A stretch of DNA of 31,494 nucleotides from IMG/VR virus record IMGVR_UViG_3300009499_000131, positions 1 through 31,494 of that record. One strand, given 5' to 3'. Under the pieces are notes generated by a model. The model saw nothing but the letters and a program-made list of their open reading frames with translations, did not search any database and had not been told where the DNA came from. Position numbers and translations under genes: made by a program. This stretch comes from a virus. Of the stretch, positions 911-31,361 are shown piece by piece. Positions within the stretch are counted from its first letter, which is position 1, and each line of letters begins with the position of its first letter.

Positions 911-1320
911 ACAAATTTAACTATAACAATTATAACGGTCAAAAGCACGATAGTCAAGTCGGAACCCTAAAAAACACCGCGAATATAGCTGGGCAAAGGA
1001 ATATAATACCTTGTAAATAAAGAGGTTACAAAAATTTAACTTTAGATTGTTATCTTTTAAAAATCGTTTTGTATCAGTATTGCTGAATATGTAACCACTT
1101 TTGCTTATAACAAGGGGGTATTCGCCAAGTTTAGCCATTGGCAGGCCGGGTTTCATAGTTTCTCGGTGGTTAATCTGAGTTACTGTCCAATATTGTAGGT
1201 TAATAATGTACATAATCGCCCTTTTTTGCTCTTTAAAATCCATTGTATATCATTGTTTTCTATTGCATATCACCGACTAACGGCAAGTACAACGCAAAGT
1301 ACCTGATTTCGGCAGAGTTT
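911..1320. other. Intergenic gap between folC and integrase, presumed left attachment region
   Basis: No convincing gene is present. A 108-codon minus-strand frame (917-1243) lacks a ribosome binding site and has no recognisable composition or motif. The stretch is A/T-rich. Two copies of ATTG(T/C)ATATCA at 1242-1252 and 1262-1272 lie exactly 20 bp apart, which would put them on the same face of the helix, as expected for integrase or excisionase arm-type sites. At 1284-1302 the motif CAA(A)GTAC occurs twice. The element boundary is probably in the 1240-1310 part because the integrase gene ends at 1321, but no att core can be proved from one sequence. Confidence 0.5.
1284..1300 (+). repeat. 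Left copy of a 17 bp att-like motif
   Basis: CAAGTACAACGCAAAGT matches 14 of 17 positions at 25350-25366 and 14 of 17 at 31295-31311. The ten bases AACGCAAAGT are identical here and next to comF. Its position 20 bp from the end of the integrase gene suits an attachment site. Against this, the other two copies share much longer flanks with each other than with this one. Treat as a candidate only. Confidence 0.3.
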
Positions 1321-2502
1321 TTATGCCGTCTGTTGTTTTGCACGTTTCTCTCCGAATCCTACTAGCTTGCTTATGGCTTCGTCCTCGGCGCCTCTGAGCA
1401 GGTGGGTATAGTAGCGCATAGTGGTCGAAATATTTGCGTGCCTTAGTATTTTTTTTACCACGTGCGGCGGTACACCCTTGTTAGCCAAGTGGCTTGCGAG
1501 CGAATGGCGTAAACTATGAAACTTGATTGTGCCACTATCGTTGGATGCCTCGATACCAGCGTTTTTACAGTCCTTGCGAATCATAATGGCACTGTGCACG
1601 TGAATCTTAAAGACCTTAATGCTCGGCATCCTGTCTTTGACAAGCTCTTTTACCAACTGAGCCGTTTCGGGCGTAATTCGCTGATAAGCTTCGTTGTCGT
1701 TTTTTGTGTCCGTGCCAGGCACTAAAACAGTACGTTTCTCAAAGTTAAAAGAAGTCCGGGTCAGACTTGCAAGCTCATTCTTCCGTAGTCCTGAATCGAA
1801 TGCCAGCTTGTATAATACATATCGCTCGTGTCCGGTCAGTCCGTACATCGTGGAGCCCTTGCGTGTGGCCTCGTATAACGCCTGCAATTCGTTTTCCTCA
1901 AAAGCTCTCTGCTTAGGCACTATATATTTGATTGACTTTATCACCGGAGTTTCTTTTATCCGGCCTTGCTCTTTCAGCCAGTTGGCGAATACTTTAAACG
2001 ATATGATGTAATGTTGCGCGGTATGCTTGCCTAATCCTTCGCTGATTAGAAAATCTCTTATCTTCGTACCATCAACATCACCCCAATACTCAATATCGCA
2101 TCCGTCCATAATTCTCCTGATATTAGCTTCGACCTGTGTAGAATAACCATTATCGGAATTTACCTGCAAATCCCTGATGAAGTCTGCAAGGTGCTCGGTC
2201 AGCGGCCTTGTGCGGTTGGCCTGCTCTGCCCTCAATAGTCCGGCCGCGTATATCTTGTTTCGGAGTTTCGGCTCTTGTGCTCGCACCCATTTGACCAAAC
2301 TTTCTGGTGGGTTAAGTCTCTTTTTAGACCACTCGTTCAATGAGCTTATTTGACTGGCAGTAATATCGGCCACGTCCTGGTCTGTGGTCGATAGTCCCCA
2401 CCTTCGCACAATACCGTTAGGGTCTCGAAATTCCACCCACCACTTTGCGACCTGTTTGGTCTTACCTTTTTTGTTTTTGTATTTGGGTTTGAATAAGCGC
2501 AT
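1321..2502 (-). CDS. int: Tyrosine integrase (phage type)
   Basis: 393 residues, the usual length for a phage integrase with arm-binding, core-binding and catalytic domains. It cuts and joins att sites to insert or excise the element. The N-terminus (residues 5-45, WWVEFRDPNG, WGLSTTDQDVA) looks like an AP2-like arm-binding domain. The core-binding SAM-like region is about 100-180. Catalytic residues are visible: R240 in GLRKNEL, H329 and R332 in FHSLRHS, a His in LRHANISTT and the nucleophile Y365 in MRYYTH. A ribosome binding site (AAAGGTAGGTG) precedes ATG 2502. It is the gene closest to folC, so it probably integrates the element. A structured leader and an AlpA-like gene lie directly upstream, so its expression may be controlled by read-through of that leader. 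Confidence 0.95.
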   Translation of the reverse strand: MRLFKPKYKNKKGKTKQVAKWWVEFRDPNGIVRRWGLSTTDQDVADITASQISSLNEWSKKRLNPPESLVKWVRAQEPKLRNKIYAAGLLRAEQANRTRPLTEHLADFIRDLQVNSDNGYSTQVEANIRRIMDGCDIEYWGDVDGTKIRDFLISEGLGKHTAQHYIISFKVFANWLKEQGRIKETPVIKSIKYIVPKQRAFEENELQALYEATRKGSTMYGLTGHERYVLYKLAFDSGLRKNELASLTRTSFNFEKRTVLVPGTDTKNDNEAYQRITPETAQLVKELVKDRMPSIKVFKIHVHSAIMIRKDCKNAGIEASNDSGTIKFHSLRHSLASHLANKGVPPHVVKKILRHANISTTMRYYTHLLRGAEDEAISKLVGFGEKRAKQQTA

Positions 2503-2672: not shown

Positions 2673-2876
2673 TCATGCTTTTTTATTCTGCCATTCTGCA
2701 CGCCCAGGACATCCCGCTGCAATCCAATCCTTTAATTCCTGAACAGACCATAAAGTACGCCTGCCAAGTCTCCTCGGTAAAGGAACTTTGCCTGAATTGT
2801 GCAGCGAATAGAAAAACGCAGGACTAACACCAAGTATTTTCGCTGCTTCTTTAGCTGATAACAGTAAAGAATCCAT
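2673..2876 (-). CDS. AlpA/excisionase-like HTH protein
   Basis: 67 residues, with the MerR-like HTH_17 pattern LLSAKEAAKILGVSPAFFYSLHNSGKVPLPRRLGRRTLWSVQELKDWI trimmed here to its key parts: AAKILGVS as recognition turn, LPxxxGRRTxW wing and a C-terminal ExxxWI helix. Proteins of this family bind att or promoter DNA and act as excisionases or activate integrase transcription. It lies 170 bp upstream of int in the same direction, separated by the structured leader, which fits an xis-int module. ATG 2876 is preceded by GGAAAG at 9 nt. The last 15 residues are not part of the domain. Confidence 0.82.
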   Translation of the reverse strand: MDSLLLSAKEAAKILGVSPAFFYSLHNSGKVPLPRRLGRRTLWSVQELKDWIAAGCPGRAEWQNKKA

Positions 2877-3126: not shown

Positions 3127-4500
3127 TTATCGCCTCGTTTCTGTGAATAACCTTTCATCTTCTGTTTCAGAATCTTCCCCTATGTTTTTTCGCAAGTCAC
3201 CAAACTTCACGTATTCTTCAAGGAAAGCCATTTCTGCAATTCCAACAGGGCCCCTTTTATTTTTTGCTATAATCACTTCGGCAATTCCATCCCGTTCGTA
3301 ATTATTGGGCTTTTCACTTCGCCTGTAGTAGTCCTCACGGTGTAGCAACATCACAACATCGGCGTCCTGCTCAAGTGAGCCACTTTCCCTTAAATCGCTC
3401 AATCTTGGTCGGTGTTTTTCTCTTGCCTCGACAGCTCGGTTCAACTGAGACAACGCAATGACCGGAATATGCTCTGCCATTGCGAGGCGTTTCAATCTGC
3501 TGGAAATAGCTGTTATTTCCTGTTGCCTATTTTCTGTCTTACGACTTGTATTCATCAGCTGTAAAAAATCGACAACAACCACATCCACGCCTCGGATTTT
3601 TTTTTGGACCTGGACAAAAGCAACCTGCTTTTCCGGCGTAGTGCCGCCTTCATGCAAAACAATCGGCAGTTTTTTAATTTCAAACGCAGCGGCGTAAATT
3701 TTTTCTAAATCTTCCTGGGTTGGGTTCCCACCTTTAATTACTGTCATATCGACATGACCTACATTACAGCACGCCCGCTCTATAAGAGCCCGATGCGTCA
3801 TCTCCAAACTAAAATAGACAATACTCTTTCCGGCCTGAGCCATCTTCAAAGCAAAATCCAGGGCAAGAGCGGTCTTGCCCATACTCGGCCTGCCGGCAAT
3901 GATAATTAGTTCACCGGGTGAAATGCCTTCGATAATTTTATCAATGTTGCGAAAACCTGTTTCGATTACATCTTCCCTGTTCTGCATCTCACCTGCTATT
4001 TGCGTTGTATGGTCTGCAACATCGAAATATTCATTTTCTTTACTGCCCGGCTCGATTTCCAAAACCAATTCCCGGACCTGTTGAATCTGCTCCTCTAAAC
4101 CGAGTGGTTCGTTAATCACTCTCATAATTTTATAGCTGCAAGTAACAAGCTGCCGATATTTTTGTCTATCACGAACAATGTCGGCATAAAATTTGGCGTT
4201 TGCTGAATGTGGAACACTCCGCATAAGCTTTGCTAAATACTTTACCCCACCTACCCTTTCAAGTTGATCAGCTTTCTTTAGCTCGCTTCGCAGAGTAACC
4301 GCATCAATGCGCACTTTACTCAAATGCAAATTTATCAAGACTTGGTATATCTGCCGGTGTTCTGGCTTATAAAACGCTTCTTCTACGACGACAGGGATTA
4401 TCTCAGGAATACATTCAGGTCCGATGATCATCGAGCCTAAAAGCCCAGCCTCACTTTCCAAAGACCATAAGCGGTCCGCCTTAAGCTTTTCATTTGCCAT
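3127..4500 (-). CDS. dnaB: Replicative DNA helicase, DnaB family
   Basis: 457 residues from ATG 4500 (an in-frame ATG at 4518 is also possible). DnaB forms a hexamer that unwinds DNA 5' to 3' at replication forks. The N-terminal primase-interacting domain (EAGLLGSMI, about residues 15-130) is intact. The RecA-like motor has Walker A GRPSMGKT at 203-210, Walker B VVVVDFLQLM at about 307-316, and the family motifs SQLNR, LSDLRESGSLEQDAD and KNKRGP. Length and motifs are those of a full chromosomal or phage DnaB. The start overlaps the end of the replication-protein gene by 11 bp, so the two are translationally coupled. With an O-like initiator and an embedded origin, the element likely replicates on its own after excision. 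Confidence 0.95.
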   Translation of the reverse strand: MANEKLKADRLWSLESEAGLLGSMIIGPECIPEIIPVVVEEAFYKPEHRQIYQVLINLHLSKVRIDAVTLRSELKKADQLERVGGVKYLAKLMRSVPHSANAKFYADIVRDRQKYRQLVTCSYKIMRVINEPLGLEEQIQQVRELVLEIEPGSKENEYFDVADHTTQIAGEMQNREDVIETGFRNIDKIIEGISPGELIIIAGRPSMGKTALALDFALKMAQAGKSIVYFSLEMTHRALIERACCNVGHVDMTVIKGGNPTQEDLEKIYAAAFEIKKLPIVLHEGGTTPEKQVAFVQVQKKIRGVDVVVVDFLQLMNTSRKTENRQQEITAISSRLKRLAMAEHIPVIALSQLNRAVEAREKHRPRLSDLRESGSLEQDADVVMLLHREDYYRRSEKPNNYERDGIAEVIIAKNKRGPVGIAEMAFLEEYVKFGDLRKNIGEDSETEDERLFTETRR

Positions 4501-5446
4501 GTAACACATCCATTTCATTCAAAAGTCGGTCCCGGGCAGTAAGACCATCAGCATCGCGTTTTATTGGCATTGGCGTATCACCACCGCTGGAAATTTTCTC
4601 CATAGAGAGTTCGAGCTTATCAAACTTCGCCCTCAATTTCTGGGTTGATAAAATATTATTCTGCCATCCACGCCACTGTCCGTTACCAGTCCCTCTATCC
4701 GCTTGGCACCAACGGATAACCGCCTCGATGCGTTCAGGCTTCCGGTGGTCAATGCGAATCATCTTTTCGATATGCACTGCCCATGACTGCAAATTTGGTT
4801 TCCGAAAGTCCGGTTTCCGTTTCCTAATTTCCTGAAATAAAAAAGAGGCAAGTCGGGAATTTTCAGATTTCCGATGTGTTTCTTTATCTGCTTCTGCTTC
4901 TGCTTGGGCTGACATTGGCTGACATTGGCTGATATTTTGCTGACTCATTTGTTCTGTAAGTTCTTTTCTCTCCACCACTTCTGTTTTTGTTTGTGTTTTT
5001 CTGTTTTTTGGCATTGCTGACGGCTGCTGACGGTTGCTGACGGCTGCTGACGCGTTGCTGACATTGGCTGACTTGCTGACATTTTGCTGACTCCTTTGCC
5101 GCCTTTTAGCCTCGCGATTTTGTTCTCGGCGTTTCTCCGGGTCCCGTTTCTGCCGGTATTTCTGGTAGTTGGCAATGAGCCAGCCGCCATCACACTCCAA
5201 CAGTCGGCGGCCTTCATGTTCTTTTGAGCGGCTATAAGGGTCTGGCGAACAGAGCGACTTGATACTCCGCTCAGCGTCCTCTACATTCATCCTGGCAATA
5301 GTTGCCATCCCAGGTATTGAACCTGAAACATGACCTTTGGCGTTGGCGCTCGCCAACATCGTAATCCACATAATTCGGGTTTTGTCATCTTCCGACCAGA
5401 CGCTTGAGGTAATGATTGTACCGAATAATTTTGTAAATCCAGTCAT
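4490..5446 (-). CDS. Phage replication protein, lambda O-like organisation
   Basis: 318 residues from ATG 5446, which overlaps the stop of the resolvase gene as ATGA and has GGAG just upstream; 15 codons further upstream are open but unsupported. Residues 1-95 (FTKLFGTIITSSVW, SIPGMATIARMNVEDAE, SPDPYSR, DGGWLIANYQKYR) match a winged-helix domain common at the start of phage replication proteins. A charged stretch, then a Ser/Gln/Asn-rich linker (about 115-195) follow. A C-terminal domain (FLFQEIRKRKPDF, WAVHIEKMIR, VIRWCQ) probably contacts the helicase. The linker is encoded by repeated GCTGAC-type motifs, just as the lambda origin lies inside gene O. Role as initiator or helicase loader is inferred from domain layout and from dnaB immediately downstream. 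Confidence 0.8.
   Translation of the reverse strand: MTGFTKLFGTIITSSVWSEDDKTRIMWITMLASANAKGHVSGSIPGMATIARMNVEDAERSIKSLCSPDPYSRSKEHEGRRLLECDGGWLIANYQKYRQKRDPEKRREQNREAKRRQRSQQNVSKSANVSNASAAVSNRQQPSAMPKNRKTQTKTEVVERKELTEQMSQQNISQCQPMSAQAEAEADKETHRKSENSRLASFLFQEIRKRKPDFRKPNLQSWAVHIEKMIRIDHRKPERIEAVIRWCQADRGTGNGQWRGWQNNILSTQKLRAKFDKLELSMEKISSGGDTPMPIKRDADGLTARDRLLNEMDVLHGK
4908..5091. repeat. Iteron-like GCTGA(C/T) arrays with T-rich tract, candidate replication origin
   Basis: Twelve copies of GCTGA(C/T) fall in two clusters. Four are at 4908, 4918, 4928 and 4939. Eight are at 5016, 5026, 5036, 5046, 5057, 5067, 5075 and 5086. Most spacings are 10-11 bp, one helical turn. Between the clusters, 4980-5010 is almost pure T with some G, a plausible unwinding element. 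All of it lies in the linker of the O-like gene, as in lambda. The repeats might instead be only a low-complexity protein linker. Confidence 0.6.
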
Positions 5447-14332: not shown

Positions 14333-14573
14333 AGCGTCGCACGATCCAGAAGCCCATCAGCTTTCAATTTAATCCCCTTCACACAATGCCCACAGTATCT
14401 CCAAACATAGCTCTTATGAGCACCTTCCGCTCGTAGAATCGCCGATATGGGCTTGACCCTACCTCAGATACCCTTCGGCCGCTATTGTCCGTTTTTTCAC
14501 TTATCAGACCCCTGAATCTGGTCGATAATATCTTAAACGTCCCTAATAAATCTTTGTTGTTGAATAGAAGGAG
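14333..14573. other. Cargo intergenic spacer 2
   Basis: 241 bp with no gene. It holds the second copy of the post-gene repeat and otherwise nothing recognisable. The next gene's ribosome binding site AAGGAG (14568-14573) touches its ATG. Confidence 0.4.
14350..14372 (+). repeat. Post-gene repeat, copy 2
   Basis: Second copy of the 23 bp repeat at 13056-13078, one mismatch. Read on the minus strand both copies encode KLKA(E/D)GL, hinting that the repeat may be the 5' end of a broken gene or part of a widespread intergenic family. Confidence 0.65.
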
Positions 14574-15452
14574 ATGAACCTGTCGGAACTGTTGGTCATT
14601 GATAAAAGTATATTTCACAGCCTTTGTGGTTGTGATGAGAAGTTGTGTGCATTTGTCAAAAACTACAATGTTGTTTTGCCAGAAGCCTTGGTTGTTGAAT
14701 GCCTTATAAGCGAGAACCAAGAACCGTCCAAGAATCCAGTAAAGTTATTGAGAGGATTTGACAAGGCAATCAAGGCTGGAGCAAAAATGGGATACTCGTC
14801 ATTAAAACTCTTTCAGGCGGAGATGCAGACTCTTTGCACTGCTAAGTCGGTCGTTGACGAAAGTGCCACAAAATTGTTTAGAAATGGCACTCTTAACACT
14901 GAAGCTGATTTTATTAAACAGGAAGCGGAATATTGCCGTAAGAAATTTGAACCTATCATCGAGAGCTTATTGGAAATCGCAAGAATATTGCACGACAAAC
15001 TTTACAAACGAGATAAATTAGCGGAGGCGCTTCGTAAAGAGAAAGACAGAATACGTCGGTTTGAACAATGGATTCGCGCTACAGATCAAGAAATGAAATA
15101 TCTTATAAGCCACTTCTTCTCGGAACAGATTAGACGTCATGCAGATACCAACTGGTTTCTTTGGCAGATGTCTCGACTTTATTTTGCGTATAGTCTTGAT
15201 TTGATGTTCATAAAAAATCTACCCGGTTCTTGTGTAAAAAAGAATATATCAAATGACTTCTACGATATAGAGCCCGTATTGTATCTCTCACGAGCGGATG
15301 GTTTATTGACAAATGACAAAAAGTTGCAAGTGCCACTGGCGAAGGCAGCGTTTCCAAAAAAAGAGGTGTTAGTCGTGGACACCTCAAAGGATGTTCAGCA
15401 CGTGTTGGACGATATTATTGACATTATCCCAGAGAGCTACAGAATTGAATAG
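14574..15452 (+). CDS. PIN-domain-like nuclease with helical insertion
   Basis: 292 residues. The N-terminus LLVIDKSIFHSLCG and VVLPEALVVECL gives the first PIN strand with D10 and an acidic residue at 37 or 42. The C-terminal part YDIEPVLYLSRADGLLTNDKKLQV supplies the late acidic residues (D231, D242, D248) in the usual PIN order, followed by VLVVDT. About 180 helical residues are inserted between the two halves. PIN proteins are metal-dependent RNases, often toxins. AAGGAG touches ATG 14574 with no spacer, so the true start may be CTG 14580 or TTG 14592, both in frame. It is the last cargo gene, convergent with the polyvalent gene. Confidence 0.62.
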   Translation: MNLSELLVIDKSIFHSLCGCDEKLCAFVKNYNVVLPEALVVECLISENQEPSKNPVKLLRGFDKAIKAGAKMGYSSLKLFQAEMQTLCTAKSVVDESATKLFRNGTLNTEADFIKQEAEYCRKKFEPIIESLLEIARILHDKLYKRDKLAEALRKEKDRIRRFEQWIRATDQEMKYLISHFFSEQIRRHADTNWFLWQMSRLYFAYSLDLMFIKNLPGSCVKKNISNDFYDIEPVLYLSRADGLLTNDKKLQVPLAKAAFPKKEVLVVDTSKDVQHVLDDIIDIIPESYRIE

Positions 15453-15721: not shown

Positions 15722-18700
15722 TCATTTGACTGTTTTAATCAGGCCGCCGATCTTTGCATAAATCTGTTTACGTTCATCAATCGTTTTAGCCACCCGCAAT
15801 TTCTTCCAAAACAGAGATATGTATCTATTTCGATTGTTAAGTTTTCTTCTCCTCAAATCCATTTTGCTGTCCGGCTTGATTCTGTCGGATTGATACATCC
15901 GATTCAGAAGCTCCATCTCGCTGTAAAAATCTTCAATGGATTTTTTAGGTGCGTAGGGGTCACGGAGAAACAGAGTTCCAATCAAAGGCCAGTCCTTTGG
16001 CGTTAGTTCTTTCCCCCTGTGCCCTGTGGCTAATTCAGTACTCTTGGCGATCCTGCGATAAATGCCGCCCGAGTAGCTGTTCAAGGCATACTCTATCTGA
16101 GATGGCGATTGCTTGAATATCTTACCTAATGTCTTGGCGAATGCTGTCGTGTAGTCGTTATACTGGTCCTCGGGCATCTTCCCTTCGACCGACCTCGGTA
16201 CTATTGGCCGGTCTGCCCAATCCTTGTTGCGTCTTATGTCCAGGTACGGTCCTATGGCTGCCGGCCAATCGAACAGCGGCTTTATATCGGCTTTGTAAAC
16301 CTCACCGAGAAAGTCTGTTATCTTTCCAGGGTCCACCGTATAGAGAGCATCAATCACGGTCACTGGCATACTTTGGAAGATATGACCCATCAAGAACGGT
16401 ACTGGAATGCGAAGAACATAATCAAGCTCCTTGCCTATTTTGTATTTCGCAACGAACCGGCCTAATAGCGGCACTTGTTTGATTCTCTTAAATACTGGGA
16501 TATGAATATGATTTGCCTTCTCGTAAGCGGGTAATTCTTTGTACCATTTTTCATCTTTGTTCAACCACCAAATACCAACAGCAGGTAATGTCAAAACACT
16601 CAGGCCCCACAACATAGCTGATTTAGGTCTCTCCTGAAATGTGCGATAGACTTTGGACATATCCTGGGCGTTGGCGTTCCAGAAGGTGATCATCGAGTTC
16701 AGCCATCTACCGTACAGTCCCGCTCGGCGGTAGTTGATTGTCTGGTCTGAAGCATACTGAAAGGCGTAAACAATAGCATCCGGTGGTGGCTCACCACCTT
16801 GAGTTTGGTGCTTTGCCATCCAATCTTTTAAGGCCCTCTCAAATTCCTCGATCCGCAGCCCGGATTCAGGTATTCCGAATAAAGCTCGCATCGCATCAAC
16901 GGGGTGTCTGACAGTGCGGATAGCATGACCAGCAACGGTGTTGGTGAGCATATCACCTTTCAGGTGTTGTATGCCGGTCCTGTCCTGTCCCAAGTATCCT
17001 GATATTTGACCACCAATATCTGAAAATCTTTCCGCTGCCTTATTAGCATCTATGCCTAACGCCTTCGCCAGGCCAGTATAGGAAAGGTCTTTTGCCACTC
17101 CTTTCGCAAAAGCTACTGGTCCCCGGGCATATCGTGCCTTTACCGTTGTATCCAAAATGTCCCTGATAGGATTTCTTACCAGACCGAAGGCGGCATGAAT
17201 TCCTGTTGCACCTAACCGGCAAAGTCTGTTAGCTTTTCCCAATATCAGATTGAGCAGTTTTGGTAATTGGAATTGGTCTAAATCCTCAAGGACCCGATAG
17301 AGTTCCGGGGCCACTTGATACCACTGCCTCTTGCCGTCAACTATGACAGAGATGATATGTTCCTTACCGAGAAAAATTGGTGAGTTTCCAAAGACGGTAA
17401 GCATTGCATCGTCAAGATCGCCGGGAACTACATCAATTCCTAAATCAATCAGTTGTTTCTTTAGCTGTTTAGCATCGAATGTAGTAGCTTTCATGGGGGG
17501 CGGCACTCTCTCTATCAGCCCTGCCAGGCCCGGGGTTTTTCGTTCTACTTCCGCTAATGCCCTCGCTATCATTGACTTATGTGCTATTGAAATAAGCCTG
17601 CGGGTTTGCGTTATCATAGACTCAAGCGGGTCCTCGATGGGCCTGCCGGAACCTATGATTTTATAAACTCCCTTACCGCGTTTGATAAGGCCCCGGCCAA
17701 CACCTTTCGGAGTTCGTCTTTTTTCGCCCGGCGCAAATGACCTGAAAAACGGAACGTAAACAGGATTGAGCTCTCTCATTCGCCTGGCGGCTTCTTCTTC
17801 CAGACCACCAGCTTGAACAAGATAACCAAGTACCCTGTGATTCCATTCGGTTAATTCGAGAGCAATTTTCTCCCATTTTAGCGAATGATACTTCTGATAA
17901 ATATACAGGGCGTCTTCATTGTCAAAACCTGATTCCAGCTCTCTCGAATGAAGGGATATCGCCCTGACAGCAACCACATACCTCATAAAGTCTTTAATCT
18001 CATCCGCTACAGGTCTCAGAACTTCCTTTAACGATTTACCGGTTACATTGCCCCATATATCAATGGTATGATCTATCACAAAGGTTCTTGCCCGGGCCCC
18101 TTCTGTCTGTGTCAAGAATCCAAATAGAAAACCGGGGTCCTTGCTGCCAAATTCCAGACTCCTCGATGGTACGTTCTCCTGCAGGGCCCTTTGTATCGGA
18201 GTTGATACATCGGCCCAGGTTGTTGACCACCATAAACTGAAGCGTTCTTTCCAGTTTTTCAGTGGTTTGAGTTTTTGTGCTATCTGAGAATCAAATCTTG
18301 CTTCGGCCCCCTGTTCTTTCCACTGCTCTATCATGTCCTTTGCAGTATGCAGAATATCCGCTATGTCGGCATTGTCTTTTAAGTAGTTGTCCTCAAAGAA
18401 TTTTAACATTCGCGGAGCTTCTTTCTTCAGGTCGATGGCCCCGGTAAGCCAGCCGAAAACAAACTCGGCATAGCCTTCCATCTTATAACCGCCTTCCGGC
18501 CTTTTCTTGCCGTAAGCGGCTTTGCCTAACCGGACCAGCTCCGCGCCAAGACCGTACCAGGCGTGTGACATCTTCTTACTGGCGGTGTCATTGAAATATA
18601 CGTCTATATGATGGCCGACCTCGTGAGTTGCTGTTCGTAGATTATTGACGTTTCGTAACCGTATCCCCCTGGTCCTTTTGTTATACCATCCGGGCTTTTT

Positions 18701-21700
18701 CTTCCTGAATGTCGCTACTCCCTTAATCGAAACACCAAGAGCCTTGCTCAAATAGTTTACTATGTCTCTCTGTGAAATCTTGGCTGGTTTCGTCACACCT
18801 CGTTTTAATGCTATCTTGCGTGGTACTTTGGGTTCTGCTGCAAATCCAACGTCCTCGGGTTTGTCTCGGTGGGCATTATTGTATTCTCTCGCGGTTTCAG
18901 GCGCTGCATCATCGCTCTTTATCGAATTGCCCCTGCCTTTCAAATATACCAAAGCATCTAAGAGCTTGGCCGAACTGAAATCGGCCCGCATCGCTTGTTT
19001 CCATGTTTCAAATTCGCCTACTATTTCTCGTAGTCTTGAATCGCCGAAATATTTCAGGCCCCTGGCTTTAGACTTGGGCACTTCGATATAGGCGCTGTTT
19101 TTACCTGCTTTGAATATTCTGGCCTCGCCCACCTTAAGATGAAAAACGCCCCGGGGATTATCCATCAGATAAGCCACGGCCGCTTCGGGGATCATATTGA
19201 TAGATGTAGGCAGATCGTATGAAGGGTCGTAAGTCTTGGGCAAAAGTAGTCCCTGCCGTCTGCTGCCATCTGCCATCGTGTAATTGATAACTTTCGGCCG
19301 CACCTGTTTTTTGCTATTCTCGCTATCACCCACCAAAACACCCATTGCGGCAATTATGTTGCCGTTGGCGATGTATCGTTCTTCTTTCTGGTCCGTTGGA
19401 ATATTGAAATATTTATCGAGCTTGCCGTAAAAACGCTGTGAGTTTTCAAATTGTGCCAATGAAATAACAACCGACCGGGCAGGATGCGGTATCGCAATTC
19501 TGAGACGGATATTACTTGGGGCCGCTGGATTGATGGCGTATTCTTTCTTACCGAAAGTGTCTATGATTTCCAGGAGAATAAAGGGATTGCCTTCCGCATC
19601 TCTGCGGATTGACCCTAACTTTATTTGAGATAGCATACCCCGTGCTCTCTCATAAGCGGCTACAGTATTTCTCTTTACTTTTCTGCCTTTCCTGTTCAGC
19701 CCGGCTTCATATTCAGACCAGGCAAAATCAACTCTTTCTCTGATAAGACCCATATATGAATTGGGGCTTGATACATTAGCTTTTTCCACTACACTTTGAA
19801 TTTCGTCTTTTATCTCGATAGTGGTCATTGGCCGGCCTTCGAGGACAACGCTCATCTTGTCCAACGCAGCCGGCTCCTGAAAGACGTTGCCTGGCTCACC
19901 TACAAATATGGTCTTTGTCGTTACCTCCTCGGCCTTGTAGTCTTTGTCTGTGCTGATGAGTTCGTTCTGGTCGGTTTTAGTCAGATACTCAATTAGATTA
20001 TCAAACTCAGGCTCAGCCCAATCGTAAAATTCCTGCTGCTGCTCTACGGATAGTAACGCAAGCCTGCCGGTAAATCGCCTTGCTATCTTATCTTCATTCC
20101 AGGGACCGTGATAATTGCCCGTACCCATTGCATCTTCATATTTGCTTACTTCGATATCCAGACCCATTTGTCTTAGAATATCAGGATTTTGGGTGATATA
20201 TTGAGCAACAATGTATTCACCATAGAGATTAAGAATGTCGGGAATTTCTTTTTGCTGATATGCCCCTTTCGTCTTTGCCGAAGTATTGGCATTGAGGGAC
20301 CGCATCTTGTTCTCAAGGATAGCAGCGGGTCTTAACTCTGAGGGCAATGCCGTCATTAAAATCTTGTATTCCGGCTCAACCACCTGGCCTTTGCGATTGA
20401 TACGGCCTAAAATCTGTACGAATTTGTTGATGTCAGCCGCAGGTTGAACAACTATCATTACCCGCTGCTCTTGGTTCCTGAACTTCACAGAAGCGTGTGC
20501 GCTCATTCCCTCAGCGCCTGCCACGTTGACTATTAAAGCGTCCGTATCGCCATAGTTGTAATCGTAAACTATACTTGTCTTATCACGTTCAGCCGAGGAC
20601 CGAAGGGCCAGCTCGTATTTGTCTTTTCCTTTTTTAATCAGTCGCTTATCTCGACCTGTTATCTCTCCAACCTTATAGCCCTCTACCTCAAGCTGGCTGA
20701 TAATCTCGTCAATAGGTGAGCCCGGCAGGTCCAACTCCATTTCTTTTATGTGATTCTCTGTGGCATGGTAGGCATCCTGTAAATCTAAAGGCAAATCGTC
20801 CACTTTCACATATACAACTTCAACATCACCCCAACTATAGACTTTTTGATAACGCAAAGTATTACGCAGCATATTCAGCATGACTTCACGGTAATCAAAG
20901 TCGCTGATAATATCACCAGCATCAAGACCATTCTGTTTAACGTATCGGTCCAGGAATGAGCCCATTGTATTTTCCAAAGCGACAATAGGCCGTTTCCCCG
21001 CCTGTAACGCTTGTATCACCTGGTCCACTGTTTCGTCTATCTTCAAGGCCAACAGCATTTGCTTAATAGCATTATGAGCAACAGCGGCAAAGTTAGTGTG
21101 CCCTATGGTAGTACCAACACTTTTGGTCCTTTTAGCTTGAGCCTTGGCCTCTTTCTTCTTTGGCTCGATTACTGTACCTGCAAATCGTTCGTCAAAAGAA
21201 ATTATCTGCCTGAATACTTCCGTGACTTTATCAGCTCGCTCAGTATCCCTCTCGAGATGTCTCGCATCAATAGTCGTTTCGTATTTCACGCCAGAGAAAT
21301 CTAACTCCGTCCTTATGTACGAATTCGCCCTTGCAAGAGCAGCGGCAATAACTTCCTGGTACGGCTCACCACCGGTTTGGACCGCTTCCAGCATATTGTC
21401 CCTGTCACCATCGAAGGCATCTAAGAGTCCGGTCCGGGCATACAACGTCATAGTCTTGGGGGTCTTTGCGTAAGTAGCGGAACTAAACAATACCCCGGAT
21501 GAATGAGGAATAAGCATTTCTCTGATGTATTCACCCGTCTGACTTTCGCCGGCGGCGTTATGGGATTCATCGAGAATGAGTAGCTGACCTTTAATAAGCT
21601 CTGCGATCTGCATCCTCTGTTTGCGAGTTTCGGTATTGACTTGATGATAAGTCGATAATACCAAATTGTAATCCTTGTCTCTTATCGCCTTATGAATTGC

Positions 21701-24700
21701 CCTGTCCGCGGCTGGCCTACTCCCATGCTTTTTGAATACTACCCTGTTTTTCTGGTCTTTAATATCAACATCAGCGTTCATCATCAGGGGTTTTATCTGG
21801 TCTTCGGTAAGCCCCACGTCAAACAGGTCCCGGAAAAAATCAGTGAATAGATGTTTGCCGGAAGTGAAAAATATCGGCTTCCTGCCGTTCAGTATCTCCC
21901 GCCTAACCAACGCAGCTCCCACCCGGCCCTTGCCAACACCTGTCTGATGGCCTACTATTAGAGCAGAGCCTTTATCAATCCTGTCCAACGCCAATGCCAC
22001 TGAATCAATCTGCGTGGCGGATAAATGTCCCCACATCTCCGTATTTGATTTGTACTGTAGCTGCTCCCGAACGTAATCGTCAATGTCACCTACGCTCTGC
22101 TGTAGTTTTTCTAATGCAGCGGTAACGTGTGGCTCAAGATATGTAGGGATATTTTCGTTTGGTGCGGGTGCTTTTGAGGATGGTTTGTACTTTACTTGAA
22201 GTTTGCCTAACGCAGTAGGTCCCACCATTCCCACAGGCTTACGCTTCTCAGCTCGTTTAACCTCTGGTTTTCGTCTAAGTTCTTCAATAGCGGGTCGCTC
22301 TTTGCGTTCCGCAGCAGCTCTTTCTTCCGCTGCGGGCTCGCGTTCAAATACAGAAGGCTTTGAGACAGGAGATGGTTCTGGTTGTACCTCTCGCTCGCCA
22401 GCAGGAACTCTACTAGGTCCGGATCGTTCCCCGGGTAGTCTTCCAGCAGGCCCTCGTTGAGTAATTCGTTCACCAGCCCCGCCCTCGACCTCTGGTCTCT
22501 CGCCAGCCGGTTCAATCGGCCTGCCAACAGGTCCTCGTATTTCTGCCAATTCTTCGGCGGTCCGTTCTTCAGCTCCACGCCCAATAGCCTCAGCACGTCC
22601 AGGCTCCTCTCCGGTGGTGGTATATGTAGTTTCTGCTGGCTCATTTGCCAAAATCTCCTTCATCATATTATACACTTCCGACCAGCTCTTTGCTCGGAAA
22701 ATTCCTGCTTTTGGACCATAATTTTCAGATTTTTTTCGGCCATGAATCGCTATGATCCTTACAGGCCAAGCGGCTCCCTGTCGGCGGTATAGATCGCCCG
22801 CTACCTCAAAGTCGCCTATCACGTTGTAATGACTGTAAATGTAGTTCCCGAATATCCATTCCGGGGTGGAATATTTACCCATTTTCTTGGGTGCGGCGAT
22901 AATCATTACGGCCCGGCCTTCGTCCCGCATCGCCTTCAAATTCTCCGCCGCTATGATATGCTCGATGTGTGATAGTTTGAATCCGTCAAATCTAACTTCT
23001 TTGTGCTTCCCGAAAGGTGGGTTCATTATCACCGCATCGGATATAGGTTCAAGATATGCTTTGCGGGCGTCGTTTTCAGTTACACTTGCATAACCTTGAG
23101 AACGAAGTATTTCTGCCCTGGTAGGGTCAATCTCATTGACAATGACATTAGCAGGATCAGCCACGATAGTAAGCATACCTGTCCCGGCTGTGGGTTCGTA
23201 CACTACCGTACCCGGGCCAATATGAGCTAATTCGCTTGCGATAAAGGCCAACGGAGCCGGCGTTGAATATGCCTGCCCTTCAATTGATGTTCCTGTTCGG
23301 GCAGTAAGGATCGGTTGGCGATCGTATAATTCCACTAAAGCGTTTATTGTTTCTTCGGAGTACCCTCTGTTTTCTTCTACAATGCCCCTGGCCGCCTTCA
23401 CTATGGCCAGTTCCATCGCTTCCTGTACTTTCTTGTGCGAATATCCTTTTTCGGGCGTTAAGTCAGCTCGTGATACTCCTAACGCATCCGCCACCCATTG
23501 CTTTACCTGCCTATTATCAATTGGTTCCGTTGAAGTCTTTAATCGTTCTGAAAATCTATCGGCAAGGCCAACTACGTTGATATTGTCAACTGTACCTATA
23601 TTAGCTATGGTAGGGGGCTGGGCTTGTCGTCTTCTTGTACGAGCAAGCATCTCACCATCGAGTATCTGAATACGTCTTTCCAATGCCTTTGCCTCTGGCG
23701 TTTCTGGTAGTTCCCAACTTTCTTGAACAATAGTCTGCATAGCATCTAAATCATTTTGCTTAAAAGCAATATCCGCTCGCTTGCTTAAATCTGCTATCTT
23801 AGCTTCTGGTGCTACTTTTACCGCCTCTGGCTTAGTTATTGGCGCAGTGGATCGTACAGGAGGTGGAATGACCCCTGCAGAGGGTTGTTTAGGTATGGTA
23901 GTTGGTGATATTTTAACGGCTGCCCGTTGTGCCGCTCTTATTGGGTGTTTTATCATTTGGCCGATTTCTTTGGATGTTTCTATGACCTCGGCCACTTTGG
24001 TCATTGGCATTTCGATAAACGGTTTTGTTTTCCCAAGACCTGTCTTTAGTGCTTCCACGCCCTTGAGCAATGGCCGGCCAGGTTCCAGACCATACCTAAT
24101 CATCCTCTCAGCGGCTCTTTGTGGTGATTCAACTGCTTCCTGGCCTAACTGATAAAGTGTGTCTCCCTTTATCCCGAGTAATTGAGCCTCTGCGGCAGAG
24201 ACTATTTTATCAATAGCTTGCATTTCCGCTTTTTTGAGGGATGTCAAACTGCTGTATGCAGCAGATTTCGCCGTGCTTTTAGCCATAGCATCAACTTCTC
24301 GGAGCTTACCCGCGAAACGACTATTGCTCGCTTTGACAAGAGCATTGCGTAAACGGCTTGTATATATCGCGGTGTCAACTTCACTGGCAGTTTGAAAAGT
24401 CCCGGCAATCGCACCGACTAAGGCAGCTCTCTTGCCAACGTGCTTTATAACCTCGCCGGGTTCCATATCCTTGCCAAGCACTTCGGCCCCCGCCAGTATT
24501 CCGCCGACACCCAAACCTTTTTCAACTGCCTTAGTTATATTTGCGGCCCGGGCATATCCACGAGGGAACTTTTCCGCTAACTTTGTCAGACCACCCATTT
24601 TCTTAATGGCTTCGGTAGCTTTGGCCACCCTGGGTATCTTGCTAATGGCTGCTCCACCTATACCAACAGCTTTGAAAAGAGTAGGATATATTATGCCCCA

Positions 24701-25303
24701 TTCAATCGCAAGGGTTCCAGTTTCTCCGGCCGCCAACATTAAAGCTGGACCAAAACCGGCAAAATTTTCGGCTTCTTCAACTAATTGTTTTTTGAAATCC
24801 TTGCCACCTAATCGACCTCCAAGAGTTGGATAATATTTCAATGCCCACTTGAGGCGGTCGGGAATTTCCTCGGCCATTCTGTCAGATTCTTCACGAGTAT
24901 ATGGCGTGGTAGGTGATACCATCTCCCTTATGCCTTTGAAGATTTCTGGGATACCAACGTCAACAGGTTTCTTTTTTTCGTGTCCCAACCGCTCCCTCAT
25001 CGTTCTGGTATCGCCCGACTCATCCCACATAGGACCTAACCCTATCCCAGTAGATTTCTGTTGCATCGGTATTGGCTTAGTTAGAGGATATATTTTGCCC
25101 GAAGGAGAGGTGTATTGTTTAAGACCCATTCGGCGATATATTTCAAGGTCAGCTTCGTTGGGTTCGATAAGGTCTTCGGCTGTAGGTGCGGGTTCTTCTT
25201 GGAGTGTAGGCTTTTTTACTCCCGCAAGCTCTTCAAGAGAACGGATGGGAGCTTTGACAATGGAGGTTTTGACGCCAGCAAGCTCTTCCAGGGTTTTTAT
25301 CAT
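15722..25303 (-). CDS. Giant polyvalent protein: DNA methyltransferase, DarB/Sno-like helicase, metallopeptidase, LPD38-like
   Basis: 3193 residues from ATG 25303. Order: N-terminal twin LEELAGVK repeats (5-12, 23-30); Gly/Ala-rich hydrophobic region (about 170-290); adenine-type methyltransferase with EPTAGTG at 703-709 and NPPF at 761-764; low-complexity Glu/Arg/Pro linker (about 890-1020); SF2 helicase of Strawberry-notch/DarB type with GHQTGVGKGR at 1118-1127, DESH at 1245-1248 and QILGRINRKG at 1630-1639; zinc peptidase HEVGHH at 2227-2232 with E2280 as likely third ligand; then about 900 mostly helical residues with an LPD38-like segment from 2871 (FWNANAQDMSKVYRTFQERP). Polyvalent proteins of phages are thought to enter the host with DNA and counter defences; P1 DarB is the classical case. 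It closes the right-arm operon. Confidence 0.88.
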   Translation of the reverse strand: MIKTLEELAGVKTSIVKAPIRSLEELAGVKKPTLQEEPAPTAEDLIEPNEADLEIYRRMGLKQYTSPSGKIYPLTKPIPMQQKSTGIGLGPMWDESGDTRTMRERLGHEKKKPVDVGIPEIFKGIREMVSPTTPYTREESDRMAEEIPDRLKWALKYYPTLGGRLGGKDFKKQLVEEAENFAGFGPALMLAAGETGTLAIEWGIIYPTLFKAVGIGGAAISKIPRVAKATEAIKKMGGLTKLAEKFPRGYARAANITKAVEKGLGVGGILAGAEVLGKDMEPGEVIKHVGKRAALVGAIAGTFQTASEVDTAIYTSRLRNALVKASNSRFAGKLREVDAMAKSTAKSAAYSSLTSLKKAEMQAIDKIVSAAEAQLLGIKGDTLYQLGQEAVESPQRAAERMIRYGLEPGRPLLKGVEALKTGLGKTKPFIEMPMTKVAEVIETSKEIGQMIKHPIRAAQRAAVKISPTTIPKQPSAGVIPPPVRSTAPITKPEAVKVAPEAKIADLSKRADIAFKQNDLDAMQTIVQESWELPETPEAKALERRIQILDGEMLARTRRRQAQPPTIANIGTVDNINVVGLADRFSERLKTSTEPIDNRQVKQWVADALGVSRADLTPEKGYSHKKVQEAMELAIVKAARGIVEENRGYSEETINALVELYDRQPILTARTGTSIEGQAYSTPAPLAFIASELAHIGPGTVVYEPTAGTGMLTIVADPANVIVNEIDPTRAEILRSQGYASVTENDARKAYLEPISDAVIMNPPFGKHKEVRFDGFKLSHIEHIIAAENLKAMRDEGRAVMIIAAPKKMGKYSTPEWIFGNYIYSHYNVIGDFEVAGDLYRRQGAAWPVRIIAIHGRKKSENYGPKAGIFRAKSWSEVYNMMKEILANEPAETTYTTTGEEPGRAEAIGRGAEERTAEELAEIRGPVGRPIEPAGERPEVEGGAGERITQRGPAGRLPGERSGPSRVPAGEREVQPEPSPVSKPSVFEREPAAEERAAAERKERPAIEELRRKPEVKRAEKRKPVGMVGPTALGKLQVKYKPSSKAPAPNENIPTYLEPHVTAALEKLQQSVGDIDDYVREQLQYKSNTEMWGHLSATQIDSVALALDRIDKGSALIVGHQTGVGKGRVGAALVRREILNGRKPIFFTSGKHLFTDFFRDLFDVGLTEDQIKPLMMNADVDIKDQKNRVVFKKHGSRPAADRAIHKAIRDKDYNLVLSTYHQVNTETRKQRMQIAELIKGQLLILDESHNAAGESQTGEYIREMLIPHSSGVLFSSATYAKTPKTMTLYARTGLLDAFDGDRDNMLEAVQTGGEPYQEVIAAALARANSYIRTELDFSGVKYETTIDARHLERDTERADKVTEVFRQIISFDERFAGTVIEPKKKEAKAQAKRTKSVGTTIGHTNFAAVAHNAIKQMLLALKIDETVDQVIQALQAGKRPIVALENTMGSFLDRYVKQNGLDAGDIISDFDYREVMLNMLRNTLRYQKVYSWGDVEVVYVKVDDLPLDLQDAYHATENHIKEMELDLPGSPIDEIISQLEVEGYKVGEITGRDKRLIKKGKDKYELALRSSAERDKTSIVYDYNYGDTDALIVNVAGAEGMSAHASVKFRNQEQRVMIVVQPAADINKFVQILGRINRKGQVVEPEYKILMTALPSELRPAAILENKMRSLNANTSAKTKGAYQQKEIPDILNLYGEYIVAQYITQNPDILRQMGLDIEVSKYEDAMGTGNYHGPWNEDKIARRFTGRLALLSVEQQQEFYDWAEPEFDNLIEYLTKTDQNELISTDKDYKAEEVTTKTIFVGEPGNVFQEPAALDKMSVVLEGRPMTTIEIKDEIQSVVEKANVSSPNSYMGLIRERVDFAWSEYEAGLNRKGRKVKRNTVAAYERARGMLSQIKLGSIRRDAEGNPFILLEIIDTFGKKEYAINPAAPSNIRLRIAIPHPARSVVISLAQFENSQRFYGKLDKYFNIPTDQKEERYIANGNIIAAMGVLVGDSENSKKQVRPKVINYTMADGSRRQGLLLPKTYDPSYDLPTSINMIPEAAVAYLMDNPRGVFHLKVGEARIFKAGKNSAYIEVPKSKARGLKYFGDSRLREIVGEFETWKQAMRADFSSAKLLDALVYLKGRGNSIKSDDAAPETAREYNNAHRDKPEDVGFAAEPKVPRKIALKRGVTKPAKISQRDIVNYLSKALGVSIKGVATFRKKKPGWYNKRTRGIRLRNVNNLRTATHEVGHHIDVYFNDTASKKMSHAWYGLGAELVRLGKAAYGKKRPEGGYKMEGYAEFVFGWLTGAIDLKKEAPRMLKFFEDNYLKDNADIADILHTAKDMIEQWKEQGAEARFDSQIAQKLKPLKNWKERFSLWWSTTWADVSTPIQRALQENVPSRSLEFGSKDPGFLFGFLTQTEGARARTFVIDHTIDIWGNVTGKSLKEVLRPVADEIKDFMRYVVAVRAISLHSRELESGFDNEDALYIYQKYHSLKWEKIALELTEWNHRVLGYLVQAGGLEEEAARRMRELNPVYVPFFRSFAPGEKRRTPKGVGRGLIKRGKGVYKIIGSGRPIEDPLESMITQTRRLISIAHKSMIARALAEVERKTPGLAGLIERVPPPMKATTFDAKQLKKQLIDLGIDVVPGDLDDAMLTVFGNSPIFLGKEHIISVIVDGKRQWYQVAPELYRVLEDLDQFQLPKLLNLILGKANRLCRLGATGIHAAFGLVRNPIRDILDTTVKARYARGPVAFAKGVAKDLSYTGLAKALGIDANKAAERFSDIGGQISGYLGQDRTGIQHLKGDMLTNTVAGHAIRTVRHPVDAMRALFGIPESGLRIEEFERALKDWMAKHQTQGGEPPPDAIVYAFQYASDQTINYRRAGLYGRWLNSMITFWNANAQDMSKVYRTFQERPKSAMLWGLSVLTLPAVGIWWLNKDEKWYKELPAYEKANHIHIPVFKRIKQVPLLGRFVAKYKIGKELDYVLRIPVPFLMGHIFQSMPVTVIDALYTVDPGKITDFLGEVYKADIKPLFDWPAAIGPYLDIRRNKDWADRPIVPRSVEGKMPEDQYNDYTTAFAKTLGKIFKQSPSQIEYALNSYSGGIYRRIAKSTELATGHRGKELTPKDWPLIGTLFLRDPYAPKKSIEDFYSEMELLNRMYQSDRIKPDSKMDLRRRKLNNRNRYISLFWKKLRVAKTIDERKQIYAKIGGLIKTVK
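15854..15878 (+). repeat. 25 bp exact repeat, copy 2
   Basis: Lies in the last 50 codons of the polyvalent gene, encoding KPDSKMDL on the minus strand, and is identical to 12027-12051. This is probably the source copy because it lies in an intact frame. Confidence 0.75.
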
Positions 25304-25307
25304 TTAA

Positions 25308-25386
25308 TGTCGCTCTGGCCAATTTTGGGCATTTATTGACCATTTTACACAAGCACAACACCAAGTCGTTACGTAAGTCCTTTATT
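25308..25386 (-). promoter_or_regulatory. Bipartite site, copy 1, upstream of the polyvalent gene
   Basis: A 24 bp block (25308-25331, 22 of 24 identical) and a 25 bp block (25362-25386, 22 of 25 identical) match blocks at 31253-31276 and 31307-31331. Both pairs are separated by exactly 30 bp. The first block begins 5 bp from ATG 25303 and contains the imperfect palindrome TGGCCAA-TT-TTGGGCA. The second contains GACTT twice, 12 bp apart. It is either a shared promoter/activator region for two minus-strand transcription units or a duplicated recombination site. The rest of the 25304-25439 gap holds no gene. Confidence 0.6.
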
Positions 25387-25439: not shown

Positions 25440-26324
25440 TCATTTAATCGCACCCCTGGCCCTTAGTGCTTCTAATATTTCTATCTGGGTTGCACCTTGA
25501 GTAATGGCACGAGTTACAAGACTTTTGGTGTCGTCATCTAAATTGCGCCAATAGCTATTGAGATACGGCCGGGGTGCTATAGGGGCGGTACGGTTTACTT
25601 CGAGTGTGCCTAACGGTAAATTCTCAAGAGGGGGATTGGATGGACTATAATAACTTTCCGTTTCTCCCCTTCTCGCTGACCTGTATTCGTCCAAACGTGA
25701 TTTATACTGTTCGAGCTGCTCAATATAATATTTTCGCTGATCTTCCCTGCCAGGGATAGGAGAACCAATCGCATCATAAGTTGCTTCCAACGCCCTCTCA
25801 ATTGTGTGCATGATACTGATGATGTCTTTTTCGCCCAGATCATCATCAGCGTCTTTTCTTGCCAATTTTCTACCTTCTGCCTGTGTGATTAGTCCCTCTT
25901 TAACCATCTTCATAATAGGGGAAAGAGTTGCCGGCCTATCCTGGCCGTAGTATTTCGTCCTTGCCTTAGTGAAATCTATATCAGCCCGCATGGCTTCTGT
26001 CTCTAAGGGGTCTCTCAGCATCGGCGCCATTGCCTGGCCCAGCACCCTCTGCGCAAACGGGTCAAGTCCGCTCACTCCGCCCCGGTAGGTCCCTTTCGGA
26101 TTGACCACGTCCCACATCCTCCCCAGGAAGCCCTCCGGCTCTTCCTGGGCCATCAGGGACGAAAAGCCCTGTTCAGGGTCCGCTAAGTATCTCTTCAGAA
26201 CCTCGGTGTTGAAGTTCTCTTTTTTCGATTTACCGATAGCATCGAATATCTGCATCATCGCATCCCGGTTGGCGAATGCGTATGGGTCCGGCCTGGCCGG
26301 CGGTGCGAAATATATATTAGGCAT
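25440..26324 (-). CDS. Virion-like protein of unknown function
   Basis: 294 residues, start ATG 26324 with AAGGAG, which overlaps the stop of the previous gene. N-terminus MPNIYFAPPARPDPYAF is Pro-rich; the middle is helical (AQRVLGQAMAPMLRDPLETEAMRADIDFTKA, DIISIMHTIERALEATYDAIGSP). The C-terminal 45 residues (DDTKSLVTRAITQGATQIEILEALRARGAIK) look like a small helical domain. It lies directly upstream of the polyvalent protein and downstream of another virion-like gene, an order typical of phage genes for internal virion or ejection proteins. Role inferred from position. Confidence 0.55.
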   Translation of the reverse strand: MPNIYFAPPARPDPYAFANRDAMMQIFDAIGKSKKENFNTEVLKRYLADPEQGFSSLMAQEEPEGFLGRMWDVVNPKGTYRGGVSGLDPFAQRVLGQAMAPMLRDPLETEAMRADIDFTKARTKYYGQDRPATLSPIMKMVKEGLITQAEGRKLARKDADDDLGEKDIISIMHTIERALEATYDAIGSPIPGREDQRKYYIEQLEQYKSRLDEYRSARRGETESYYSPSNPPLENLPLGTLEVNRTAPIAPRPYLNSYWRNLDDDTKSLVTRAITQGATQIEILEALRARGAIK

Positions 26325-26336
26325 AGTTTAAGCTCC

Positions 26337-27239
26337 TTAATATCTTGCATACATTGCACCAGCTTGAGGTGTTACAGTACCTACTGTTGGCATTCCTCCT
26401 CCGCCACGAGAAAATATATTACCCCCTCCCCCTAACATCATAGCCATAGCCGCTGGCCCGGCAATCTGGCTGAACGTACTCGGGCCCGTATCACCCGGAT
26501 CGTACATTTGCCTCGTCTCTCCTAATATCGTACCTGCTGCGCCAGCCGGACCCTCCTGCTTATACGGGAACAACAGCGTTTGTAATAGTGCGAGATAATC
26601 CGCCTCATCCTGGGCCGTCTCTATCTGTCTGGGCAGGCCGCCGTATGCCGTCGCCGCCTCCGTTTTTCGCAGTGGTGCTTTTGAGGCGTAGTCGCTGGCC
26701 TCTATCAACGGCCCCGCCGCCCCCGTCTGCCGTTCCCTCTCGCGGTCATAGAGCGCACCTAAGTAGCCCATCCGGTCGGCTGAATACCCCCTCCTGGTAG
26801 CCCCCTCCTGCTTCAAGGCTGGGCTGGAAAAATCACCGTGACCCACTAATTGCAGCCGTCTCCTCAGCTCGTTTATCGCCTCCTCCTCCTCCATCTTCGA
26901 GGCCTCCCGGTATCCCTGGTAGGCCGGTGAGGTCATGGGGTCGTAACCGCCTTCCACCGTCTTTTTAAGCTGGCCTATCCCCGTCGTTATCCCGCTGGGA
27001 ATCCCCTTATTAAGATATTCCTGCAACCACTGCTGCCCCTCCGCTTCGATACCGGTCATACCCGGTATCTTTCGGGTCGGGAACTGTACGTTTTTCTTAG
27101 TGAGGCCTAAAAGAAATTTCCTGGCCTCACTTTGTTCCGGCGAATCAGGAATACTCTGAAAGCCGCCACCGCTATTCTTTGAAGCCAACATAGACCCGCC
27201 CGTTGCTATTGCTGTGGCCCCTATCAATGCCCACGACAT
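26337..27239 (-). CDS. Gly-rich virion-like protein, candidate internal/ejection protein
   Basis: 300 residues. The N-terminus MSWALIGATAIATGGSMLAS is hydrophobic and Gly-rich, followed by SIPDSPEQSEARKFLLGL, helical repeats with many Glu and Arg, and a C-terminal hydrophobic Gly-rich patch (AGPAAMAMMLGGGGNIFSRGGGGMP). This pattern (helical body with hydrophobic Gly/Ala ends) is common in podophage internal virion or DNA-ejection proteins. GAGGTG precedes ATG 27239, which overlaps the cupin-like gene by 16 bp. I do not recognise a named family. Confidence 0.55.
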   Translation of the reverse strand: MSWALIGATAIATGGSMLASKNSGGGFQSIPDSPEQSEARKFLLGLTKKNVQFPTRKIPGMTGIEAEGQQWLQEYLNKGIPSGITTGIGQLKKTVEGGYDPMTSPAYQGYREASKMEEEEAINELRRRLQLVGHGDFSSPALKQEGATRRGYSADRMGYLGALYDRERERQTGAAGPLIEASDYASKAPLRKTEAATAYGGLPRQIETAQDEADYLALLQTLLFPYKQEGPAGAAGTILGETRQMYDPGDTGPSTFSQIAGPAAMAMMLGGGGNIFSRGGGGMPTVGTVTPQAGAMYARY

Positions 27240-27790
27240 ACTGACACCTCGCTTTCTTTTGAAATTAGTCCCTTTTCACCGGTGTCTATTCTAAGAGTTT
27301 TTTTGACCTCTTCAGGCAATTCATCGTATGTTTTTGCTATCACCTCTTCTTCGATTTTTTCCAAATCCGTCTCTTCAGTTGCGTGAACGGTTATCCAGAC
27401 AGTGTCCTCGTGAAAATAACCAATTCGTTTTGTTCCTGCCTGGGTAATGCCGGAACAGGGTGCTTTGATTCTTTCTACACCCTTCTCTGTCAATATAGAA
27501 ACATCACCCTTGAGAACAAAAAAAGGATGCGTTGTTTTGTGCAGTTTGGTCACCACTACCATCCCTTTTAGCCCTGTCATTTCACGAATATAAAGACCAT
27601 CGGCAAAAGTGTGGCGCAGGGGAAAAGCCTCATCGCCGAACTTTGCTCCTGGCACTCTCCCAAGTGCTGATTCCAATTTAAGCATTTTTTTTATGATCTC
27701 TTTGGGAGATGGTACTTTTTCCAGGTCCTCCGCCATTGTGCAAACCCCCTCAACTTTTGCTAATCCGCTAACCAATGTTCCAAGTACCAT
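27224..27790 (-). CDS. Cupin-like phage protein
   Basis: 188 residues. The core THPFFVLKGDVSILTEKGVERIKAP, GITQAGTKRIGYFHEDTVWITVHATEETDLEKIEEE has the short-strand pattern of a cupin barrel, and I know this sequence type as a conserved hypothetical protein near structural genes of tailed phages. Two ATGs each have a good ribosome binding site: 27790 (AGGGGG, 7 nt) and 27736 (AGGGGG, 8 nt, giving MAEDLEKVPSPK). The shorter form lacks a mildly hydrophobic 18-residue lead. Both forms may be made. The function is unknown; HED may be a metal ligand group. Confidence 0.7.
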   Translation of the reverse strand: MVLGTLVSGLAKVEGVCTMAEDLEKVPSPKEIIKKMLKLESALGRVPGAKFGDEAFPLRHTFADGLYIREMTGLKGMVVVTKLHKTTHPFFVLKGDVSILTEKGVERIKAPCSGITQAGTKRIGYFHEDTVWITVHATEETDLEKIEEEVIAKTYDELPEEVKKTLRIDTGEKGLISKESEVSVCRGH

Positions 27791-31252: not shown

Positions 31253-31331
31253 TGTCGCTCCGGCTAATTTTGGGCAGTTTAGCTATAGTGACACTAAGAA
31301 AAACGCAAAGTCTTTACCTAAGTCCTTTATT
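31253..31331 (-). promoter_or_regulatory. Bipartite site, copy 2, at the comF junction
   Basis: Blocks 31253-31276 and 31307-31331 match 25308-25331 and 25362-25386 with identical 30 bp spacing. Copy 2 lies 22 bp upstream of the zinc-ribbon gene. On the minus strand the spacer contains GTGTCACTATAG, a possible -10 region. The second block ends only about 30 bp from the comF -10 box, so the element boundary must lie in or next to this site. Confidence 0.55.
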
Positions 31332-31361
31332 GACAACGGTCTTAATCGGTGTTACTGTCTA

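Follow-up and report, generated by a model that had tools for sequence, protein, structure and literature searches.

A giant phage-type polyvalent protein in an integrated, capsid-less element of a Phycisphaerae bacterium

Results

Borders and gene content of the element

The window analysed here comprises positions 1 to 31,494 of the IMG/VR record IMGVR_UViG_3300009499_000131. Related Phycisphaerae genomes have folC and comF side by side in divergent orientation, and the genome G249 has an empty folC-comF site to which window positions 1-1187 align at 92% and positions 31342-31494 at 95%. The two alignments overlap by 18 bp at this site, and this overlap is the attachment core. The element spans ~1170-31359 (~30.2 kb), lies wholly within the window and is integrated in a Phycisphaerae bacterium. 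At the right end, a 39-aa piece for which Pfam gave nothing matches the host comF in both G051 and G249.

The element encodes an integrase, an excisionase-like protein and a replicative helicase (Table 1), the last being the only ORF above 400 aa besides the giant gene. Short tandem-like GCTGAC repeats (4908-5098) are found in a 333-aa gene beside dnaB, and a small protein encoded at 9032-9724 (minus strand) contains MutS domain I (Pfam E 1e-14) and gives a weak DnaD-like loader match. Between the early and the late blocks, plus-strand genes (12558-15452) encode a YaaC-like protein, weakly similar to HEPN, and another of 292 aa that is PIN nuclease-like by eye; these genes are possibly cargo, and PADLOC gave no match for them. 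Two more tyrosine recombinases are encoded side by side near attR (29214-30852, minus strand), bringing the number of recombinases in the 30-kb element to three.

Table 1. Features of the integrated element, ordered by position in the window
Feature	Position	Strand	Evidence
attL core, next to folC	1170..1187	.	alignment to the empty folC-comF site of G249
Tyrosine integrase adjoining attL	1321..2502	-	NCBIfam
HTH_17/AlpA-like excisionase	2673..2876	-	Pfam
DnaB replicative helicase	3127..4518	-	NCBIfam TIGR00665 above cut-off
Giant polyvalent protein gene	15722..25303	-	
C-terminal LPD38 core, residues 2431-3184	15752..18013	-	profile; fold matches
LPD38 Pfam domain, residues 2919-3108	15980..16549	-	Pfam E 3e-28
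Zincin-type metallopeptidase domain, residues 2151-2353 (HEVGHH 2227, third ligand Glu 2276)	18245..18853	-	alignment, profile, AlphaFold2
Helicase_C_4 (second half of the ATPase), residues 1530-1776	19976..20716	-	Pfam E 7e-24
AAA_34 (first half of the Strawberry-notch-type SF2 ATPase), residues 1083-1344	21272..22057	-	Pfam E 7e-21
N6-adenine methyltransferase domain, residues ~620-900 (YSTP, EPTAGTG, NPPF)	22604..23446	-	PHROG 6263 E 8e-13
294-aa late protein, directly upstream of the giant gene	25440..26324	-	51% identity over 122 aa with the protein preceding the G051 giant
300-aa putative ejection/internal virion protein	26337..27239	-	homologue adjoining the giant gene in G050, E 3e-12
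Tail fibre adhesin-like protein	27224..27790	-	PHROG 12032, 24280, E 7e-36; VvAW1 gp04 E 5e-22
attR core, next to comF, 2 mismatches vs attL	31342..31359	.	same G249 alignment

We found no relatives of terminase, portal or capsid proteins in the window, and tblastn with all ORFs of ~30 relative loci detected no trace of TerL, portal or capsid genes there. Because the empty folC-comF site puts both ends of the element inside the window, this absence is real, as the first-pass annotation had supposed when it spoke of an element with no capsid genes. The same site rules out that the record is cut off and that capsid genes lie outside the window.

A giant protein of four domains in a single frame

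The giant gene, for which the first reading gave no strand, runs on the minus strand from 25303 down to 15722 and encodes 3193 aa from its ATG with 0 internal stops, while the chance of 3193 stop-free codons is ~10^-66 given the window's own composition. The frame had been described at first reading as uninterrupted and as carrying five motifs, each of which we find at the residue then given: NPPF 761, GHQTGVGKGR 1118, DESH 1245, QILGRINRKG 1630 and HEVGHH 2227. Further motifs are YSTP 679, EPTAGTG 703, NEID 723, SSAT 1274 and EGYAEF 2276, and homologues of the giant protein keep YSTP, EPTAGTG, NPPF, Walker A, DESH, SSAT and the motif-VI arginines. From the N-terminus onwards the domains are an N6-adenine methyltransferase, an SF2 ATPase of the Strawberry-notch type, an HExxH...E zincin and LPD38. 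The proposed union of a methyltransferase, a Sno-type helicase, a metallopeptidase and LPD38 in one chain is supported by Pfam, PHROG, PDB profiles and the predicted fold. Examined segment by segment, AAA_34, Helicase_C_4 and LPD38 all match Pfam far over the cut-off, whereas the zincin domain has no direct match in a Pfam search but finds PDB zincins by profile.

A profile of the methyltransferase matched methyltransferases in PDB, including a type I restriction M subunit, and its motifs are invariant. The giant has the TP and NPP(Y/F) motifs of gamma-class N6-adenine methyltransferases and, C-terminal to this domain, a SWI2/SNF2-clade SF2 ATPase composed of AAA_34 and Helicase_C_4, which is of the Strawberry-notch branch and not of the SNF2 family to which the ATPase of DarB belongs. 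In DarB-like proteins this dyad of methyltransferase and ATPase is nearly always preceded by LPD36 (PMC5512222); in the giant we found neither a Pfam match to LPD36 nor, in residues 540-690, its N-terminal GXG(G/A/S) motif. Furthermore, PADLOC mad2 scores against the methyltransferase region (E 7e-10), the match being limited to the methyltransferase.

The HExxH motif occurs once in the giant protein (0.06 expected from composition). Close behind the helicase module it is present in 47 of 78 giant homologues against 0.8 expected from composition, a count that takes in homologues related to one another and not independent events. In an alignment of 24 diverse homologues, down to ~20% identity, both HExxH and a Glu 49 residues downstream are invariant, and a profile of the domain matched zincin peptidases in PDB (PPEP-1, E 0.002; ATLF-type, E 0.007). 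Structure prediction, which had been proposed as a check, gave an AlphaFold2 model (pLDDT 83) with the zincin topology, with an N-terminal helix, three strands and two C-terminal helices carrying the ligands; its Foldseek matches, although of the right kind, are weak and none has E < 0.1. With HExxH, the downstream Glu and the modelled fold all present, we assign the domain as a zincin-like metallopeptidase with predicted proteolytic activity. The fold of the LPD38 core that follows it matches viral LPD38 proteins (TM 0.6-0.76), and no solved relative of LPD38 was found by sequence or by fold.

Between the window gene and its closest relative (locus L096 of G051), nonsynonymous divergence is 0.09-0.19 and synonymous divergence 0.6-0.9 in all enzymatic domains and LPD38. 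Judged by this codon divergence the giant gene is shown to be under purifying selection, although the comparison is one between lineages and gives no date for the loss of late genes. A Pro/Glu/Arg-rich linker (residues ~900-1060, 22124-22606) has a synonymous divergence from L096 of 0.29, compared with 0.6-0.9 in the other aligned regions, which may be an effect of low-complexity alignment.

Relatives, neighbours and modular make-up

The closest relative, encoded in a Phycisphaerae MAG (G051), is a 3653-aa homologue with 76% identity over 2627 aa; it follows prophage late genes, with the terminase large subunit ~18 kb upstream and an integrase ~6 kb downstream. A second homologue (61% identical) belongs to a locus of G050 with TerL and a portal-type head-tail connector. 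Single-protein searches of IMG/VR returned no near copies. Relatives of the giant are encoded with virion or packaging genes in G051, in G050 and in the phages BS-TP4 and VvAW1; in the window only the adhesin and ejection-type genes of that setting remain. By position the 294-aa and 300-aa proteins correspond to gp02 and to the ‘DNA ejection’ gp03 of VvAW1, respectively, with no sequence match in either case.

The sequence AATAAAGGACTTANGTAANGACTT is found twice on the minus strand, at 25363-25386, ~60 nt upstream of the giant start, and at 31308-31331, just inside attR, with no copies expected by chance. It may be a late promoter or a site for a regulator.

In IMG/VR, 123 candidate stretches encode relatives of the dyad; 80 were kept, nearly all in ORFs of 2,500-6,600 aa, and in 26 of the 50 IMG/VR records tested one ORF holds both the dyad and LPD38. 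Searching with the zincin-LPD38 half gave 36 loci, and several complete ORFs, among them those of L194, L195 and L198, have zincin and LPD38 without the dyad. The reverse case is gp3 of BS-TP4, with dyad and LPD38 but no HExxH. Since zincin-LPD38 is often found without the dyad, the C-terminal half stands as an independent unit, and these gene architectures make the dyad look like optional and exchangeable cargo.

Comparison with known systems

The phage-type polyvalent proteins described by Iyer et al. (2017, PMC5512222) share with the giant a methylase-helicase dyad, an HExxH zincin MPTase and LPD38, which was described only from phage-type proteins. The giant differs in the Strawberry-notch type of its ATPase, noted there in few instances, and in that LPD36 was not found. 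Among isolated phages, Vibrio phage VvAW1 has the same gene order (adhesin, ‘DNA ejection’, 295-aa protein, giant), and its 3640-aa gp01 (‘DarB-like antirestriction’) joins zincin (E 8e-32) and the LPD38 core (E 3e-101) in one protein; unlike the window's giant, gp01 has no match to the methyltransferase/Sno profile, and the VvAW1 genome has portal and capsid genes. Bacteroides phage BS-TP4 combines the methyltransferase, AAA_34, Helicase_C_4 and LPD38 in the 5391-aa gp3, encoded beside a portal gene, and differs by extra ddrB-ParB and InPase domains in addition to the missing HExxH. Burkholderia phage JC1 gp69 shares the LPD38 core (E 3e-52) and was detected by mass spectrometry with 51 unique peptides in CsCl-purified virions (PMC9144972). 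JC1 gp69 and Bcep22 gp75 are each the last gene of the virion module, whereas their 4515-aa size, HepA/SNF2-type ATPase and lack of a match to the window zincin profile set them apart.

Phage P1 carries DarB in the virion head, from which the protein is believed to enter the cell; the system to which it belongs guards P1 DNA against type I restriction (PMC9024508). Like the giant, DarB has a methyltransferase followed by an SF2 ATPase; its ATPase is of SNF2 type, and it has neither zincin nor LPD38. The full-length comparison of the giant with P1 DarB was not significant by BLASTP, and hhalign aligns the methyltransferase only. These results, together with the different ATPase family, rule out P1 DarB as a direct ancestor and, with LPD36 not found, place the giant outside the DarB family proper. 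The resemblance to DarB drawn in the first-pass annotation is accordingly partial: it holds, distantly and by profile, for the methyltransferase, but not for the ATPase, the zincin or LPD38. By analogy, the giant would work like DarB without being a member of the DarB family proper.

Discussion

Here we describe a giant protein whose domain content places it among the phage-type polyvalent proteins (Iyer et al. 2017, PMC5512222): at least two unrelated effector/enzymatic domains are united in one polypeptide with the phage-only marker domain LPD38, and the class first proposed for it is upheld. Carriage in a virion, likewise proposed at first reading, is supported by homology, by synteny and by mass spectrometry published for a phage protein that has the LPD38 core in common with the giant. 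The giant probably travels inside the virus particle and enters the cell together with the phage DNA, which it would defend against restriction by the host. As a whole, we consider it likely that we are dealing with an injected anti-restriction polyvalent protein, encoded by the last late-operon gene of a short-tailed temperate phage of Phycisphaerae. In the mechanism that we propose, the giant and the two small upstream proteins would be packed as an ejection cassette and exit with the DNA. Packaging and translocation would be the task of the LPD38 core, which is hydrophobic and mostly helical, and the zincin would cut the chain and free the cargo. As DarB does for P1, the methyltransferase-translocase dyad would then act in cis, marking or guarding the entering DNA against restriction by the host.

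Having no terminase, portal or capsid genes, the element cannot make its own particles, and it is most likely a prophage that has lost most of its late operon and is now defective. Its attachment cores, integrase, excisionase-like and replication genes are all intact, and exactly the packaging/capsid block is missing while the adhesin, the ejection-type proteins and the giant are kept, which would also suit a phage satellite that borrows a helper's heads and brings along its own adhesin and ejection cassette, anti-restriction giant included. We regard such a satellite as less likely than a defective prophage and, taken by itself, as rather improbable, because ~400 genomes of the class and IMG/VR yielded no second element of the same make-up, because the cassette that is kept is larger than is usual in a satellite, and because plain late-operon loss accounts for the same facts. 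The inability to make particles and the mad2 score of the methyltransferase region could further be read as signs of a defence protein that the host has domesticated against other phages; with a mad2 match that covers the methyltransferase only, an LPD38 domain described as phage-only (PMC5512222), adhesin and ejection-type genes as neighbours and intact att sites, there is very little to commend this reading.

We found no support for the earlier suggestion that the zincin cleaves host proteins. An effector that cuts host proteins after injection is one possibility listed by Iyer et al. (PMC5512222), and the domain is related to known peptidases by its PDB profile matches; we think this role unlikely, given that the zincin remains next to LPD38 in proteins without the dyad, which fits the processing of its own chain. 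Zincin autoprocessing has been proposed before, an example being P1 DdrB, which has a C-terminal zincin and is cut before packaging (PMC5512222). Because the zincin stays beside the LPD38 core, often in proteins that have no effector domain, self-processing of the giant is the better guess.

The methyltransferase-helicase-zincin combination, called notable at first reading, is not novel, and the class of phage polyvalent proteins is already known; what is new is an otherwise undescribed member from Phycisphaerae. If the satellite reading were true, the particles of a helper phage would be re-equipped with the element's own injected protein. A precisely bounded element without capsid genes makes the choice between defective prophage and satellite testable. 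Why such an element keeps an intact ejection cassette is the more interesting question. Taken together, these results place the phage polyvalent-protein strategy in Phycisphaerae and suggest a simple layout in which a zincin-LPD38 C-terminal carrier, recurring alone, is joined to cargo that lies upstream and can be exchanged, in this case the methyltransferase-translocase dyad. Should the zincin free this cargo once it has been injected, phages would have in LPD38 proteins a general vehicle for protein delivery.
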